Shown piece after piece: positions 3,001 through 64,000 of a stretch of 64,000 nucleotides of DNA. Below the pieces are notes generated by a model that did no database searches, had not been told where the DNA came from, and saw only the letters and a program-made list of their open reading frames with translations. Source of the DNA: Granulicatella sp. WM01 (GTDB lineage: Bacteria; Bacillota; Bacilli; Lactobacillales; Aerococcaceae); contig NZ_SPPB01000002.1 in NCBI RefSeq assembly GCF_004570605.1, positions 1-64,000 on the forward strand, in the 5' to 3' direction. Positions within the stretch are counted from its first letter, which is position 1, and the number at the start of each line of letters is the position of its first letter. A program made the position numbers and the translations under genes.

Positions 3001-3046
3001 AAAAATGACTTTAAATTAAAGATTATAGATACCTCATTTAAAGTCA
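3001..3046 (-). terminator. Terminator of PucR-type gene (GGCTTTAAAT family)
   Basis: GACTTTAAAT (3007-3016) pairs perfectly with ATTTAAAGTC (3036-3045). On the minus strand a U5 tract follows. The loop is alignable with the other three members of the family, and GACTTT/AAAGTC shows a compensated base-pair change relative to GGCTTT/AAAGCC. Confidence 0.65.
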
Positions 3047-3162
3047 CTTTATTATTTATATTTTTTCTCTACCCTATGTTCTATTCATGAGTATTTTTCA
3101 TTCTTAATACTTTTATCCCCTTATCTTTAAAGATATTCTTATACTTTTTGTTTCATCTCATA

Positions 3163-29640: not shown

Positions 29641-29688
29641 AATGGCTTTAAATAAGGCACTTAAAATCCTTTATTTAAAGCCATTTTT
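29641..29688 (+). terminator. Terminator between importer lipoprotein and permease genes (GGCTTTAAAT family)
   Basis: AATGGCTTTAAATAA (29641-29655) pairs perfectly with TTATTTAAAGCCATT (29671-29685) and T6 follows. It belongs to the same sequence family as hairpins at 210, 3007 and 39208. Its place inside a two-gene transporter unit suggests partial termination to balance expression. Confidence 0.85.
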
Positions 29689-38843: not shown

Positions 38844-39366
38844 AACTACCTCTTCTTTTCCTTTTTCTCTTTTCTATTTTAAATAATTCTACATAAAAAT
38901 ACAAGAAAAGATGATTATATTGTAACAAAACTGTACGTTTACATTATCTTTTCATGTAAAAATGACACCGTATTATATTCTGCCTTATTTATATCTCTGC
39001 ATTGCAGTATATATTTTCCTAAAACAATGGTTAATTACCATCTTTACATTAGCTTCCCATAAAAAACATTTTTCAGCAATTAACATAGTTCTTAAAACAT
39101 ATATGACACTATAATATACGCATTTTAAGTTATTTTTACTACATCATTTTCCTTATTTTTTGTTCTACAAGAGATAAATTGATAAGTCTATCTCTACTAA
39201 GAGTAAAAAACGGCTTTAATTTAAGGCATTCATCTACCTATTTTAAAGCCGTTTAAGTTAGTAACGAATGTTTCGTATACCACTAATTTTCCTATGACAT
39301 GTTAATAGTACTATCTTACATATTTGCTGAGGATATCAAATCACATAATAGCAGATGATGGTGTCA
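38844..39366. other. Intergenic region between rseP and sufC
   Basis: 523 bases. It contains the suf promoter region at its left end, where no consensus promoter was confidently picked, and the rseP terminator at 39208-39254. No gene is seen. Confidence 0.5.
39205..39254 (-). terminator. Terminator of rseP (GGCTTTAAAT family)
   Basis: AAACGGCTTTAA (39208-39219) pairs perfectly with TTAAAGCCGTTT (39243-39254). On the minus strand a T6 run follows. It is one of four sequence-related terminators in this window, about 110 bases past the rseP stop. Confidence 0.8.
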
Positions 39367-58530: not shown

Positions 58531-59220
58531 TATTACCCTCCTTAGTATAACCATTTAAACTAGATAAAAATTACATATTAGACAGATACATTATATACTA
58601 ATGTCAATAATAACACAATATTATTTCTTTATGTGTATAGACATTATAATCTTGTTTACATCATACTGAATTATATTGAAATAACCAATACATTTTAATC
58701 AATACAGTTATCCGAGTTTATCATTTAATAATCAATTCTTTTTACTGGGAAATATACCAACTATAGCACAAAATAGCCAAAACGTGCCAATAGGCTTAAT
58801 AAAATTAATTAATAAATACTCGCTTTAAATCCTTTGTATATGCACTAAATCAAAAATCACAATTTGACTATTTTGACACAGCTAAGTGAAATAATCTTCT
58901 TTTTCACCAATATTATTTAACAACGCACTATTGGAAGTATACTCAATTTTTTATGTACTCATACAATTAAATAACACTATTATCTGAACACATAGAATAG
59001 GGTATTCAGCAACTTTTATAAGCGAATACCCTATCCTTTTCTTGCCCAATTTCTTTTCAAAACTGCCATAAAAACAATCTTCTCAATACTCTATGTATTC
59101 TTTTTAATGCACAATTTTTTATTCTTTAAAATTTACATTTGACATATCATATTCACTCTATACTGCACTTTTTGCAAATTACCATATATAAAAAAAATCA
59201 TTTGAGATAATAAAAATCCA
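58531..59220. other. Long intergenic region before the Bce transporter gene end
   Basis: 690 AT-rich bases between the 3' end of the Bce permease gene and the unknown membrane-protein gene. Only the hairpin at 58997-59034 stands out. No gene was found. Confidence 0.5.
58997..59034. terminator. Hairpin downstream of Bce permease gene
   Basis: ATAGGGTATTC (about 58997-59007) pairs perfectly with GAATACCCTAT (59024-59034). The plus-strand side is followed by CCTTTTCTTG, but no plus-strand gene precedes it, and the minus-strand side lacks a T-run. Its role is unclear. Confidence 0.4.
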
Positions 59221-61209
59221 TCATTCTTTAATAATTTTATAATAAATACGTGCCGTCAAATAATACATTAATCCGTAAAATATAGCAAATACTAATCCGG
59301 TTATGCCCATTGATAACATAAATATCATTGTATCACCCAAGCCAAATAGTAACAATATTTTTTCAATGTATGGAAAGGCTACTGCTACATGAATACCGGC
59401 TATGCATAATGGTGCAAAAAAGACAATCAACACTTGGGAACAAATCGTTCGCTTAATATCCTTATTTTCCAGACCAACTTTTTGCATAATGGCATACGCC
59501 TGTTTATCTTCATAACCTTCTGCTAATTGCTTATAATACATAATCATTACACACGATACAAGAAAAACTAGACTAGTAAATATACCCACAAATAAAAATG
59601 AACCATTCATATTCATAAAACTTTGACGCAAACTAACTCTATCTTCAACTTTATCTTCCACCTTTAATCCATTTAGAATGGATAATTGCTGTGCTATTTT
59701 TTGAACTTTCGTTTTATCTGACAAATTAAAATCATAACGGAATGCATAACGAGTTGTTGTCGCATATACACTATGGTTTAATTGCGTATCAATGTTTTGT
59801 TTTAAGATGTCTATCTCATCATCTGAAATCACAATAAAATAGGTTCCAATAATATTAGCGACCGCTTCCCCAGGAATATCTATTTTTGATACTTGTTTTT
59901 TTATATGATAGGTCTTATCTGCCAAAGTGAGTTGATTTTGTGTTAAGCGCTCTGTTTTTTCACTTTGTACTAAAATTTCACCTATTTCTAAATGCTCATT
60001 TTGTTGGAACGTACTATTGTATTGAGATAAAGGTATCACGTTAACCAAATGAACTTTTGAAAAATCTATTTGTTTTGATACTGGATTAAATCGGATAGAC
60101 TGATTCTCTTCTTTTATGCCTGTTGCATAGAGATAATCATAATTAATACTATTTTGAGTAGAAACATCTTCTTGTTTAAGGACATCATCAATCTTTTGTT
60201 TAATTGCGTGACTTTCACCTAGTTTATCACTATAGTACAAAACTGATATATCTCTAGGTGATCTTAATTGTACTGCATTTTCTATTCCAGCATATAAAGA
60301 CACCGTTGTCCCCATAGCCACTAAAATCATACACGACAAAATACAAACATTAGCTAAACCTAAAGCATTTCTTTTCATGCGATATAACATACTTGATATA
60401 CCAATAAAATGTTTCGTCTGGTAAAAATAGACTTTATTACTTTTGAGAATACGTAATACAAAAATACTAATTACCATAAATAAACTATACGTTCCTAAAA
60501 TAACACAAAGTACCGCAATAAAAAATGAAAATAATGCACTAATAGGTGATTTAATGGTTAAGGCTAAGTAATACCCATAACCTATTGCAACAATGCCTAT
60601 AAGCACCAAAAGTACATTAGCTTTAGGTTCTTTTTCCCCTCGTTTACTCTGTTGCAACAACGATGTAATATTTAGACGTAATATTTTCCACAACAAAAAT
60701 ATAAATAATAATGCATAAATACACACATATAGACAAATCGTTACTAGAACACTTGGAAGGGATAGAGATAAACCATACACAACAACTTGAGTTCCCCATA
60801 GATGAAATAAGGATAATTGAGCGACTTTAGAAAAAAGCATACCTCCTATTAATCCTATGCACACCGTAATCATACCGGTATAACATATCTCACAAAAAAT
60901 GATACGAACAAGTTGTTTTTTGCTCATTCCCAATACAAAATACACCCCATATTCTTTTATCCGTTTCTTTAATAAAAATGAGTACGTATAAAACGTAAAA
61001 ATGGAAACAAATAAACCAATGATGATAACACCAAAATTTAAGACTATTGGGACAGCACTTAATTCAGCGACCTGTTTATCAAAACATAAAGAAAGAAAAA
61101 TATAATACAACGCAACAGTAATAGCACCAGAACATAGATAAGGTAGTGTTAATACTTTATTCGCCTTAATGCTGCCTAAAGCTAATTTACTATAAAAAAA
61201 CTTAGTCAT
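59221..61209 (-). CDS. bceB: Bce-type antimicrobial-peptide ABC transporter permease
   Basis: 662-residue FtsX-type permease. It has ten predicted membrane helices and a large extracellular domain between helices seven and eight (about residues 300-520), the BceB layout that contacts the peptide and the sensor kinase. The N-terminus (FFYSKLALGSIKANK) and first helix region (YVFSFLLKKRIKEYGVYFVLGMSKKQL-type segment) are typical. It frees lipid-II-cycle intermediates from antimicrobial peptides such as bacitracin and signals flux to the kinase. The ATG at 61209 has AGGTG six bases upstream and overlaps the ATPase gene by eight bases. The specific peptide is unknown. Confidence 0.9.
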   Translation of the reverse strand: MTKFFYSKLALGSIKANKVLTLPYLCSGAITVALYYIFLSLCFDKQVAELSAVPIVLNFGVIIIGLFVSIFTFYTYSFLLKKRIKEYGVYFVLGMSKKQLVRIIFCEICYTGMITVCIGLIGGMLFSKVAQLSLFHLWGTQVVVYGLSLSLPSVLVTICLYVCIYALLFIFLLWKILRLNITSLLQQSKRGEKEPKANVLLVLIGIVAIGYGYYLALTIKSPISALFSFFIAVLCVILGTYSLFMVISIFVLRILKSNKVYFYQTKHFIGISSMLYRMKRNALGLANVCILSCMILVAMGTTVSLYAGIENAVQLRSPRDISVLYYSDKLGESHAIKQKIDDVLKQEDVSTQNSINYDYLYATGIKEENQSIRFNPVSKQIDFSKVHLVNVIPLSQYNSTFQQNEHLEIGEILVQSEKTERLTQNQLTLADKTYHIKKQVSKIDIPGEAVANIIGTYFIVISDDEIDILKQNIDTQLNHSVYATTTRYAFRYDFNLSDKTKVQKIAQQLSILNGLKVEDKVEDRVSLRQSFMNMNGSFLFVGIFTSLVFLVSCVMIMYYKQLAEGYEDKQAYAIMQKVGLENKDIKRTICSQVLIVFFAPLCIAGIHVAVAFPYIEKILLLFGLGDTMIFMLSMGITGLVFAIFYGLMYYLTARIYYKIIKE

Positions 61210-61966
61210 GATGTTCACCTACTTGTATAATACTTAATGCATCAGCTATTTTTTGATACATTTGTATATGTGTTTGTTGCCCTTTATATAATTCATGAAA
61301 AACAACACCGTCCTTAATAAATAATACCCTGTCTGCTCGACTAGCCGTTTTAATGGAATGCGTCACGACAATAAGCGTATGCCCTGATTGGTGGATGGTA
61401 TCAAATACATCTAATAATTGATCGGTTGTTTTGGAATCTAAAGATCCTGTTGGCTCATCAGCTAAAATAAGTATAGGATTTGTAATAATTGCTCTAGCTA
61501 TTGCTACTCTTTGTTTTTGTCCACCAGATAATTGATAAGGATACTTATTCAATAAAGTATCAATCCCTAAAGATTTAGCAACATGTGCTAAACGTATGCT
61601 CATCTCTTTATATGGCGTTTTCGATAAAACTAAAGGCAGTAAAATATTGTCTTTAATATTTAGTGTATCTAATAAATTAAATTCTTGAAAGACAAATCCT
61701 AGAGTATTCCTACGAAAACTAGCTAATTGCGTATCTTTCAATTTTTTTAAATTAGTATCTGATAAAATCACTTCCCCATTAGTTGCCTTATCAAATGTTG
61801 CTAAAATATTTAATAAAGTCGTTTTACCACTTCCACTTTCTCCCATAATAACAACGTATTCTCCTTTAGATACTGAAAAATTAATATCTTTTAAGGCTTG
61901 TGTTTGTGTAGTACTAAATGGACTAGCGTATACTTTTTGAACATGTTTCACCTCTAATAACATCAT
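61202..61966 (-). CDS. bceA: Bce-type antimicrobial-peptide ABC transporter ATPase
   Basis: 254-residue ATPase of the MacB/BceA class. Walker A (GESGSGKTT), Q-loop (FVFQEFNLLDTL), signature (LSGGQKQRVAIARAI), Walker B (LILADEPTGSLD) and H-loop (IVVTHS) are visible. The first ATG at 61966 has GGAGG six bases upstream. It is the first gene of the transporter operon, downstream of a TTACA-N4-TGTAA palindrome, and is coupled to the permease gene by overlap. Confidence 0.93.
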   Translation of the reverse strand: MMLLEVKHVQKVYASPFSTTQTQALKDINFSVSKGEYVVIMGESGSGKTTLLNILATFDKATNGEVILSDTNLKKLKDTQLASFRRNTLGFVFQEFNLLDTLNIKDNILLPLVLSKTPYKEMSIRLAHVAKSLGIDTLLNKYPYQLSGGQKQRVAIARAIITNPILILADEPTGSLDSKTTDQLLDVFDTIHQSGHTLIVVTHSIKTASRADRVLFIKDGVVFHELYKGQQTHIQMYQKIADALSIIQVGEHHD

Positions 61967-62046
61967 CGTTTTCCTCCTATTTGTTTGACTATATTTAGTG
62001 TAAAATACACGAAAAAAAGTTTCCATATCTTTTTCTTACAAAAAAG

Positions 62047-62078
62047 CGTATAATCTTACAAAACTGTAAGATTATACG
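62047..62078 (-). promoter_or_regulatory. Palindrome acting as candidate BceR operator and terminator
   Basis: CGTATAATCTTACA (62047-62060) and TGTAAGATTATACG (62065-62078) form a perfect 14-bp stem with a four-base spacer. The centre reads TTACA-N4-TGTAA, matching the reported operator pattern of Bce-type response regulators (TNACA-N4-TGTNA type). On the minus strand the stem is followed by a T6 run, so the RNA form is a rho-independent terminator. It overlaps the stop codon of the kinase gene and lies about 80-110 bases upstream of bceA. Confidence 0.8.
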
Positions 62079-63052
62079 TCTAAACTGTATTTATCAAAAG
62101 TAATTATGGCACACGTTCCACAACCGACTGTTGATTCTAAGGAGAGCTGTTGTCCAAGTTTATGTGTAATTGATTTGCAAATGTACAACCCTAACCCACT
62201 TGATTGTTGAAGACGTCGTCCATTATATCCTGTATACCCTCGTTCAAAAATCCGTGCCATATCTTCTTTTAAAATGCCTATCCCATTATCTTGAATGTAC
62301 AAACTTTGTGAGGTTGTATAAATTGTGATGTTTCCTCTTTCATGAGTGTATTTAATCGCATTACTCACAAGCTGTTCAATGACAAGCGCCAACCACTTTT
62401 TATCACTTTTAATGACTAAATCACTTTTTTGATAATCTAAATTTATTTTCTTTTGAATGAATAGTAGAGCATATTTTTTCATCACTTGTTTAATGAGGAC
62501 ATCAATCGAAAATTTTTCAATGACAAAATCATTTGTTTGACTATTTAAGCGAATGTAGTCCAAAGCCAAATTAGCATATTGTTCAATTTTAAACAATTCA
62601 GTTTCCATAACCGACATTGGCACATTATCTTGCTCAAGCAACACATGCATAGCCGCTATAGGTGTCTTAATTTGATGAACCCACAATGTATAATAATCTA
62701 AGATATGTTGTCTATCTTGCTGATGCTCTAGGGCTAAAGTCTGTTTTTGCTCATATTCATGTTGAATAATATCAACATATAATTGTACCATTGAAGATAA
62801 TCTTGGTAAATCCTCTAATTGTAGTAATGTCGTATTTTTTATATACTGTAATTTACGGTATAGATGACGATATTTAATAAAATATATGATAAAATCAAGA
62901 CAGATACAAAAAAGATAGAGCATGCTCGCATAAATTAAGTATTCTAAAGAAACATAATAAAGATAGCCAATTCCATTAAACAATAAGAAACATATTCCTG
63001 CTAGTACATATTTAGATTGATAGTCTTTAATATATGCACCAATCATTTTCAT
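62072..63052 (-). CDS. bceS: BceS-type intramembrane-sensing histidine kinase
   Basis: 326-residue kinase. Two membrane helices near the N-terminus (KYVLAGICFLLFNGIGYLYY and LIYASMLYLFCICLDFIIYF) are separated by only a few residues, so it has no extracellular sensor domain and reads peptide flux through the transporter. The phospho-accepting histidine is in WVHQIKTPIAAM. The ATPase has NAIKYT, QDNGIGI and GLGLYICKSI. Its start overlaps the response regulator stop by four bases. Confidence 0.93.
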   Translation of the reverse strand: MKMIGAYIKDYQSKYVLAGICFLLFNGIGYLYYVSLEYLIYASMLYLFCICLDFIIYFIKYRHLYRKLQYIKNTTLLQLEDLPRLSSMVQLYVDIIQHEYEQKQTLALEHQQDRQHILDYYTLWVHQIKTPIAAMHVLLEQDNVPMSVMETELFKIEQYANLALDYIRLNSQTNDFVIEKFSIDVLIKQVMKKYALLFIQKKINLDYQKSDLVIKSDKKWLALVIEQLVSNAIKYTHERGNITIYTTSQSLYIQDNGIGILKEDMARIFERGYTGYNGRRLQQSSGLGLYICKSITHKLGQQLSLESTVGCGTCAIITFDKYSLDV

Positions 63053-63717
63053 ACCATATATCCTCTTCCTTTTTTAGTTTGAATAAAATCAACAATACCA
63101 ATACTTCCAAGTTTGCTCCGTAAACGGTTAACATTAACAGACAATGTATTTTCATCAACAAATTGCTCTGTTTCCCATAAAAAACGCATTAATTCATCTC
63201 TTGTCACAATTGTTTCTTTATGATCTAATAAATAATATAAAATACGGGCTTCATTTTTGGTTAACTCAAGACTTTGATGGCAATAACTAACACTATCCTT
63301 GCTTGTATCAAAATAAACCTCTTTATGCATTAAAATTGTCTGATTTAGTTGAAAGTCATAAACACGTCTTAATAAAGCATCAATTTTAGCTTTCAACACC
63401 ATTAGTTTAAACGGTTTTTGAATAAAATCATCGCCTCCCACATTAATCGCCATCACAATATTCATCTCATCACTAGCAGATGAAATAAATAAAATAGGCA
63501 CTTTAGATACACGGCGAATTTCCTCACAAAAATAATAACCATCATAGTAAGGTAAATGAATGTCTAACAACACTAAGTCTGGAGAAAAAGACACTATTTC
63601 GTCCATGATCTGATTAAATTGTTCAACTATTTTCACTTGAAAAGACCATTTTTCTAAATAGGATGCTATACTTTTTGCAATAATGGCATCATCTTCTATA
63701 ATCAAGATTTTATACAT
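63049..63717 (-). CDS. bceR: BceR-type OmpR-family response regulator
   Basis: 222-residue response regulator. The receiver domain has IEDD, the phospho-acceptor aspartate (LVLLDIHLPYYDG) and QKPF lysine. The C-terminal winged helix ends with NVNRLRSKLGSIGIVDFIQTKKGRGYMV. The predicted target is the TTACA-N4-TGTAA site at 62047-62078 upstream of bceAB. The second of two adjacent ATGs (63717) gives the better spacing to AGGT; a longer in-frame extension of 36 residues lacks the family pattern and is rejected. Confidence 0.92.
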   Translation of the reverse strand: MYKILIIEDDAIIAKSIASYLEKWSFQVKIVEQFNQIMDEIVSFSPDLVLLDIHLPYYDGYYFCEEIRRVSKVPILFISSASDEMNIVMAINVGGDDFIQKPFKLMVLKAKIDALLRRVYDFQLNQTILMHKEVYFDTSKDSVSYCHQSLELTKNEARILYYLLDHKETIVTRDELMRFLWETEQFVDENTLSVNVNRLRSKLGSIGIVDFIQTKKGRGYMV

Positions 63718-63840
63718 CATGTTACCTAATCCTTTTTTAAACATTATACATTTTAAGAGCAGTATACCATAAAAATTGCTAGCCATACGCTTTGTTACAC
63801 AACATTCATACATTTGTTTAGACAAAATAAAACATAAAAA

Positions 63841-64000
63841 TTATTCAATCTTCACAAAAATACTGTCATTCTGTTGACGATCAAACACATTTAGAAAGAA
63901 TGGCATGATAAATGTTTTTCCAAAAATCCCACGATATAACTGATAACACGTTAATAAAGCCACGATAAAACAATATATACCAAACAATACAACTTTTATT
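63841..64000 (-). CDS. Partial membrane protein, C-terminal end (start lies beyond the window)
   Basis: An open frame runs from the right edge to a TAA at 63841-63843. It encodes 52 residues: a hydrophobic helix (VVLFGIYCFIVALLTCYQL) followed by a short polar tail (YRGIFGKTFIMPFFLNVFDR and beyond). I do not recognise the family. The gene would be transcribed in the same direction as bceR, ending about 120 bases upstream of it. Confidence 0.5.
   Translation of the reverse strand, partial: IKVVLFGIYCFIVALLTCYQLYRGIFGKTFIMPFFLNVFDRQQNDSIFVKIE

Follow-up and report, generated by a model that had tools for sequence, protein, structure and literature searches.

The palindrome that separates bceRS from bceAB in the window (the whole stretch of 64,000 nucleotides that was analysed) is likely to be a fused operator and terminator, at which bceRS transcripts would end, leaving bceAB insulated from them. 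At the level of double-stranded DNA, its inner part would serve the module's own response regulator as its main binding site and, together with a half-site 20 nt downstream and a -10 box 38 nt further on, would form an inducible bceAB promoter. At the level of RNA, where these bases would close the bceRS transcript, they would act with their outer arms and a U6 tract as an intrinsic terminator. Termination of bceRS would come before the polymerase reaches the remaining BceR platform and the bceAB promoter, so that bceAB would remain controlled by its own promoter, which BceR drives, and no polymerase would sweep the activator complex; this insulation is probably the main benefit. In Bce modules, little transporter is needed for sensing, and the transporter is strongly induced. 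To our knowledge, what separates bceAB from bceRS transcription directly upstream has received scant attention so far, and a repeatedly evolved fusion of operator and terminator would be a direct answer to it.

The Bce module and its predicted internal promoter

Pfam and PDB sequence searches place the genes bceR-bceS-bceA-bceB, in this order, on the minus strand of the window. The features discussed here are the following:

63052–63717, minus strand: bceR-like response regulator gene (222 codons, then stop; Response_reg and Trans_reg_C domains; gene order kept in relatives)
62072–63052, minus strand: bceS-like sensor kinase gene (HATPase_c; 33–52% identity to the kinases of bceRSAB loci of the family)
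62047–62078, minus strand: 14-bp hairpin, putative terminator stem-loop whose loop-proximal part is the predicted main BceR operator
62056–62069, minus strand: predicted main BceR operator TTACA-GTTT-TGTAA, followed by G (published consensus; the only TNACAN4TGTAAG in the genome)
62040–62045, minus strand: T6 tract of the putative terminator, within the linker that joins the two parts of the operator
62035–62040, minus strand: TGTAAG, the predicted secondary BceR half-site, spaced 20 nt from the right half of the main operator and sharing the last T of the T-run
61997–62002, minus strand: predicted -10 box of the bceAB promoter, TACACT, placed 38 nt after the secondary half-site
61973–61977, minus strand: ribosome-binding site GGAGG of bceA, read from the sequence
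61202–61966, minus strand: bceA-like ATPase gene (ABC_tran; 54–60% identity to BceA of relatives)
59221–61218, minus strand: bceB-like permease gene (FtsX; called from a GTG at 61218, with an in-frame ATG at 61209)

The bceR product is of the OmpR/PhoB type, and its nearest solved chain in the PDB sequence search is 5dcl/5dcm (E 3.7e-52). In the bceS product, HATPase_c is the sole Pfam domain recognised, and the top NCBIfam match is the SapS model, with a score under the model's cut-off. The only solved relatives of the bceB product are PsdB (9ugg, E 1.4e-34) and BceB (7tcg, E 5.4e-27). With a BceB-like permease next to an ATPase, and an OmpR/PhoB-type regulator and a kinase beside the transporter in the order RSAB, which is seen in many genomes of the same family, the locus appears from its sequence to be an ordinary Bce-type module. 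The start of bceA is probably the ATG at 61966, with GGAGG at 61977–61973 ahead of it; the longest open reading frame, starting at 62026, was disfavoured because it would begin upstream of the predicted -10 box.

A secondary response-regulator site beyond the linker has reportedly been described by Fang and colleagues in PbceA and PpsdA. Bce modules carry an internal promoter before the A gene, with a TNACA-N4-TGTAA operator (PMC9020739, PMC10858260), and in a pneumococcal relative phosphorylated BceR binds directly, as detected by EMSA (PMC9020739). In the window, such an operator precedes bceA and is followed by a half-site and a -10 box at conserved spacing. The extended pattern TNACAN4TGTAAG occurs a single time in the 2,027,228-base genome; the shorter TTACAN4TGTAA has one other site, which falls inside a glycosyltransferase gene, at its end, and was dismissed as chance. 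A second TGTAAG, allowing one mismatch, was detected in 138 of 153 collected Bce operators, with a spacing of 20 or 21 nt in 137 of the 138. From there to the best -10 match, the commonest offset is 38 nt, seen at 97 of these sites. The spacings of 20 and 38 nt in the window are the commonest values among relatives. Another -10 candidate, TATAGT, closer to bceA, was dropped in favour of TACACT, which is placed at the conserved 38 nt. Immediately upstream of the -10 box, a second T-run (T7, within 62002–62025) is present without a hairpin; similar T-runs are found at Streptococcus-like sites lacking a terminator, and this stretch may have a promoter role of its own.

The hairpin between bceRS and bceAB

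The minus strand from 62078 to 62047 reads CGTATAATCTTACA GTTT TGTAAGATTATACG, giving 14 perfect pairs around a 4-nt loop. The first-pass annotation had described a 14-bp hairpin overlapping the bceS stop and containing TTACA-N4-TGTAA, and both points are borne out: the stop codon TAA (62074–62072) lies inside the 5' arm, and the operator core occupies 62069–62056. The 3' side of the stem is followed by C (62046), TTTTTT (62045–62040) and GTAAG. The T6 run that was said to end the hairpin is therefore present, but it falls outside 62047–62078, one C past the stem, and on the non-template, RNA-like strand, where it yields U6.

Folded as RNA, the segment 62083–62032 reaches -17.9 kcal/mol (z -5.9), and none of 200 shuffles was as good. 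The stem, at -16.2 kcal/mol, is followed by C-U6, giving the stable hairpin and U-rich tract of an intrinsic terminator. It is, however, A+T-rich, with 4 G-C pairs among 14, two of them at the base, and so departs from the G+C-rich stem that is typical of terminators, though not strictly required in A+T-rich genomes; other terminator-like hairpins in this A+T-rich window resemble it in stem composition. The signature is one-directional, given that the opposite strand has no T-run after the stem. An Rfam search of the region retrieved no family, with one meaningless sub-threshold match.

With the core fixed and the flanks drawn from local composition, 8 extra outer pairs arose in 0.00094 of draws, and 8 extra outer pairs plus a T6 within 9 nt in 5e-6. 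The hairpin was the sole terminator-like match in a simple scan of 59000–64000, where 1.5 are expected by chance, and ranked eighth among 22 in an energy scan of the window's minus strand. The statistical weight rests on position and on relatives, not on the hairpin by itself.

The locus shares its gene set, RSAB order and operator-bearing internal promoter with BceRSAB and PsdRSAB of Bacillus subtilis and relatives, but here the operator doubles as the putative terminator stem and the linker carries a T-run. It has the stem-loop and U-tract with which Rho-independent terminators close a transcription unit, whereas its stem is A+T-rich and constrained by the operator core, and its T-run enters a second site for protein binding. 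Leader attenuators and riboswitch terminators are similar in placing a terminator at a regulated gene; unlike them, this hairpin precedes the -10 box predicted for bceA and can act on bceRS transcripts only. Since it also precedes the predicted bceA transcription start, transcripts initiated at the bceAB promoter do not carry it in their leader, and any RNA-level selection on the stem must therefore act through bceRS transcripts.

Operators and terminators in related loci

We gathered 89 bceS-to-bceA gaps from the same family and from public genomes. An operator with at most two mismatches was present in 86 of the 89, against about 6 in shuffles, and a hairpin-plus-U-tract scan detected a sense terminator in 61 of 84 gaps, compared with 19 in the antisense direction and 2–8 in each of the shuffled sets. 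The main operator serves as the stem in 19 of these 61 terminators, as in the window, while 37, mostly from Clostridia, have the secondary site within the hairpin and a T-run that borders the -10 box; one spans both sites, three are separate and upstream, and one is of another kind. Separate classical terminators upstream in the same gap are found at L019, L040 and L045.

In ten Clostridial gaps (L067, L078, L084, L095, L102, L118, L120, L127, L131 and L136), which have the secondary BceR site inside the terminator stem, the T-run merges with an extended -10 box (e.g. TTTTTGTATACT), an overlap tighter than that of the window. At four loci of the same order (L205, L210, L213 and L214), the T-run of a separate upstream terminator enters the left half of the operator (TTTTTTCTTACA), which is a third way of abutting terminator and operator. 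In the wider set, the T-run of an upstream terminator reaches the operator edge in some Streptococcus-like loci.

As a control set, we searched 395 genomes of the order for the operator pattern and combined the matches with the gaps; thinning left 130 non-redundant sites. A site was classed as co-directional when an upstream co-directional gene ends at most 60 nt away, and as stand-alone when its upstream neighbour is divergent or lies beyond 150 nt. With these groups and thresholds, which we chose after a first look at the data, a terminator-like hairpin with a U-tract accompanied 71 of 100 co-directional operators and 5 of 17 stand-alone ones (p 0.0018). The terminator overlaps a predicted BceR site in 64 of the 100 co-directional operators (main site in 33, secondary in 31). 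Its presence depends on an upstream transcript, as one would expect for a terminator but not for an operator; given that 29 of the 100 lack one at the thresholds used, it is not essential. The length of the T-run alone failed as a discriminator, the longest linker T-run not being significantly longer than in controls (p 0.18).

The outer arms of the main hairpin vary by lineage, as illustrated by CGTATAATC/GATTATACG in the window, AGTGGAAG/GGTTCCACT in L036 and GACAAGTTTC/GGTAACTTGTC in L044. Per-position pair counts for the main class are conditioned on hairpin detection, and we relied instead on permutation tests, for which sites were thinned, a step that does not fully remove relatedness: past the operator consensus, arms pair better with their own partners than with the arms of other loci (0 of 300 permutations), and at least 7 extra contiguous pairs occur in 12 loci against 1.8 expected (0 of 2000 permutations). 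In the Clostridial stem around the secondary site, 215 of 280 cells are paired, compared with 155 in permutations (0 of 5000 reach the observed value), and G-C, A-T, C-G and T-A pairs occur at the same positions. Among control operators without an upstream co-directional gene, some have extended arms (4 of 300 permutations were as good), including the extended palindromes of L199 and L063. Because a few stand-alone operators have an extended palindrome but no T-run, some of the outer pairs may be there for protein binding.

Mapped on a tree of the kinases from 93 modules, the main and secondary registers require 16 changes each, with gains not separated by parsimony; the changes forced by well-supported branches number at least 12 for the main register and at least 14 for the secondary one. 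Judging from these sequences, the operator-terminator overlap appears to turn over quickly. The architecture, spacing and uniqueness of the site, its recurrence and the compensatory stems in relatives can all be read from the sequences compared. This comparative evidence supports well the first-pass proposal that the same bases act as operator and as terminator, an arrangement recurrent, in several registers, among relatives across the Bacillota; the secondary half-site and the -10 box had been overlooked there. The operator, the half-site and the module are already known, and in the literature searched, which covers subscription papers incompletely, we found no report of an operator-terminator overlap in Bce modules or of its recurrence.

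Other readings of the site

For the window itself, we infer that BceR would bind here, that transcripts would end here and that insulation would be the benefit. A possible but rather unlikely addition to the fused operator-terminator is coupling between its two functions: bound BceR would block or alter the polymerase, with readthrough occurring only when BceR is off, or changing on induction. That the two signals overlap at all, and have come to do so repeatedly and in different registers, points in this direction, as does readthrough in a relative, the psdRSAB locus of L. paracasei being partly cotranscribed, with all four psd genes joined to a degree detectable by RT-PCR (PMC10858260); by analogy, a leak of this kind could feed the sensor transporter ahead of induction. 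However, insulation alone accounts for the pattern, and coupling is not needed at loci with a separate upstream terminator, such as the three named above, or with none. It is possible that readthrough and activation are mutually exclusive, but a bound BceR dimer could stop the polymerase ahead of hairpin formation, in which case there may be little readthrough in either state. We also consider it unlikely, though conceivable, that the recurrence of the fusions across Bacillota, in at least two registers, is explained by an interaction between activator occupancy and upstream termination, with bound BceR altering termination or readthrough. If this were true, a single stretch of DNA would toggle between a low readthrough supply of the sensor transporter and full activation.

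It is rather improbable that the site is an extended operator only, in which the palindrome binds BceR, the T-rich linker is a feature of promoter DNA and the likeness to a terminator is incidental. Some stand-alone operators do have extended arms, T-rich linkers are found at stand-alone operators too, and the inner positions of the outer arms (AATC/GATT, AACC/GGTT) belong to the published consensus AnnTTACnAnnnnGTnAG (PMC10858260). Even within the order alone, however, stem and U-tract are tied to a co-directional upstream gene, with a terminator at 44 of 58 co-directional operators versus 3 of 14 stand-alone ones (p 0.00026). Moreover, the stems past the consensus are wholly different between lineages and still paired, and an operator without terminator function fails to predict a terminator on the secondary site, as in Clostridia, or just upstream of the operator, as elsewhere.

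We find it very doubtful that the hairpin is a stabilising or processing stem at the 3' end of the bceRS mRNA instead of a termination signal. A stem at the stop codon would also shield the message from 3' exonucleases, and the U-tract is modest, but in most relatives a T-tract directly follows the stem, and L019, L040 and L045 carry separate classical terminators in the same gap. A terminator only, with BceR acting elsewhere, is highly implausible, as this is the sole site in the genome with the operator consensus, at the right gene and with conserved half-site and -10 spacing.

If the fused operator-terminator is as we propose, reporter or knock-out studies that mutate a Bce operator may delete a terminator as well, and an operator consensus derived from fused sites may take in bases kept for RNA pairing.

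Elsewhere in the window, another palindrome of about 40–45 bp (GGCTTTAAATNAAGG ... CTTNATTTAAAGCC) is repeated at 210–247, 3007–3049, 29641–29685 and 39211–39254. Its pattern has 30 matches in the genome with at most one mismatch, compared with 0 for the reversed pattern, and the element could be either a small mobile or REP-like sequence or a bidirectional terminator that has been reused.
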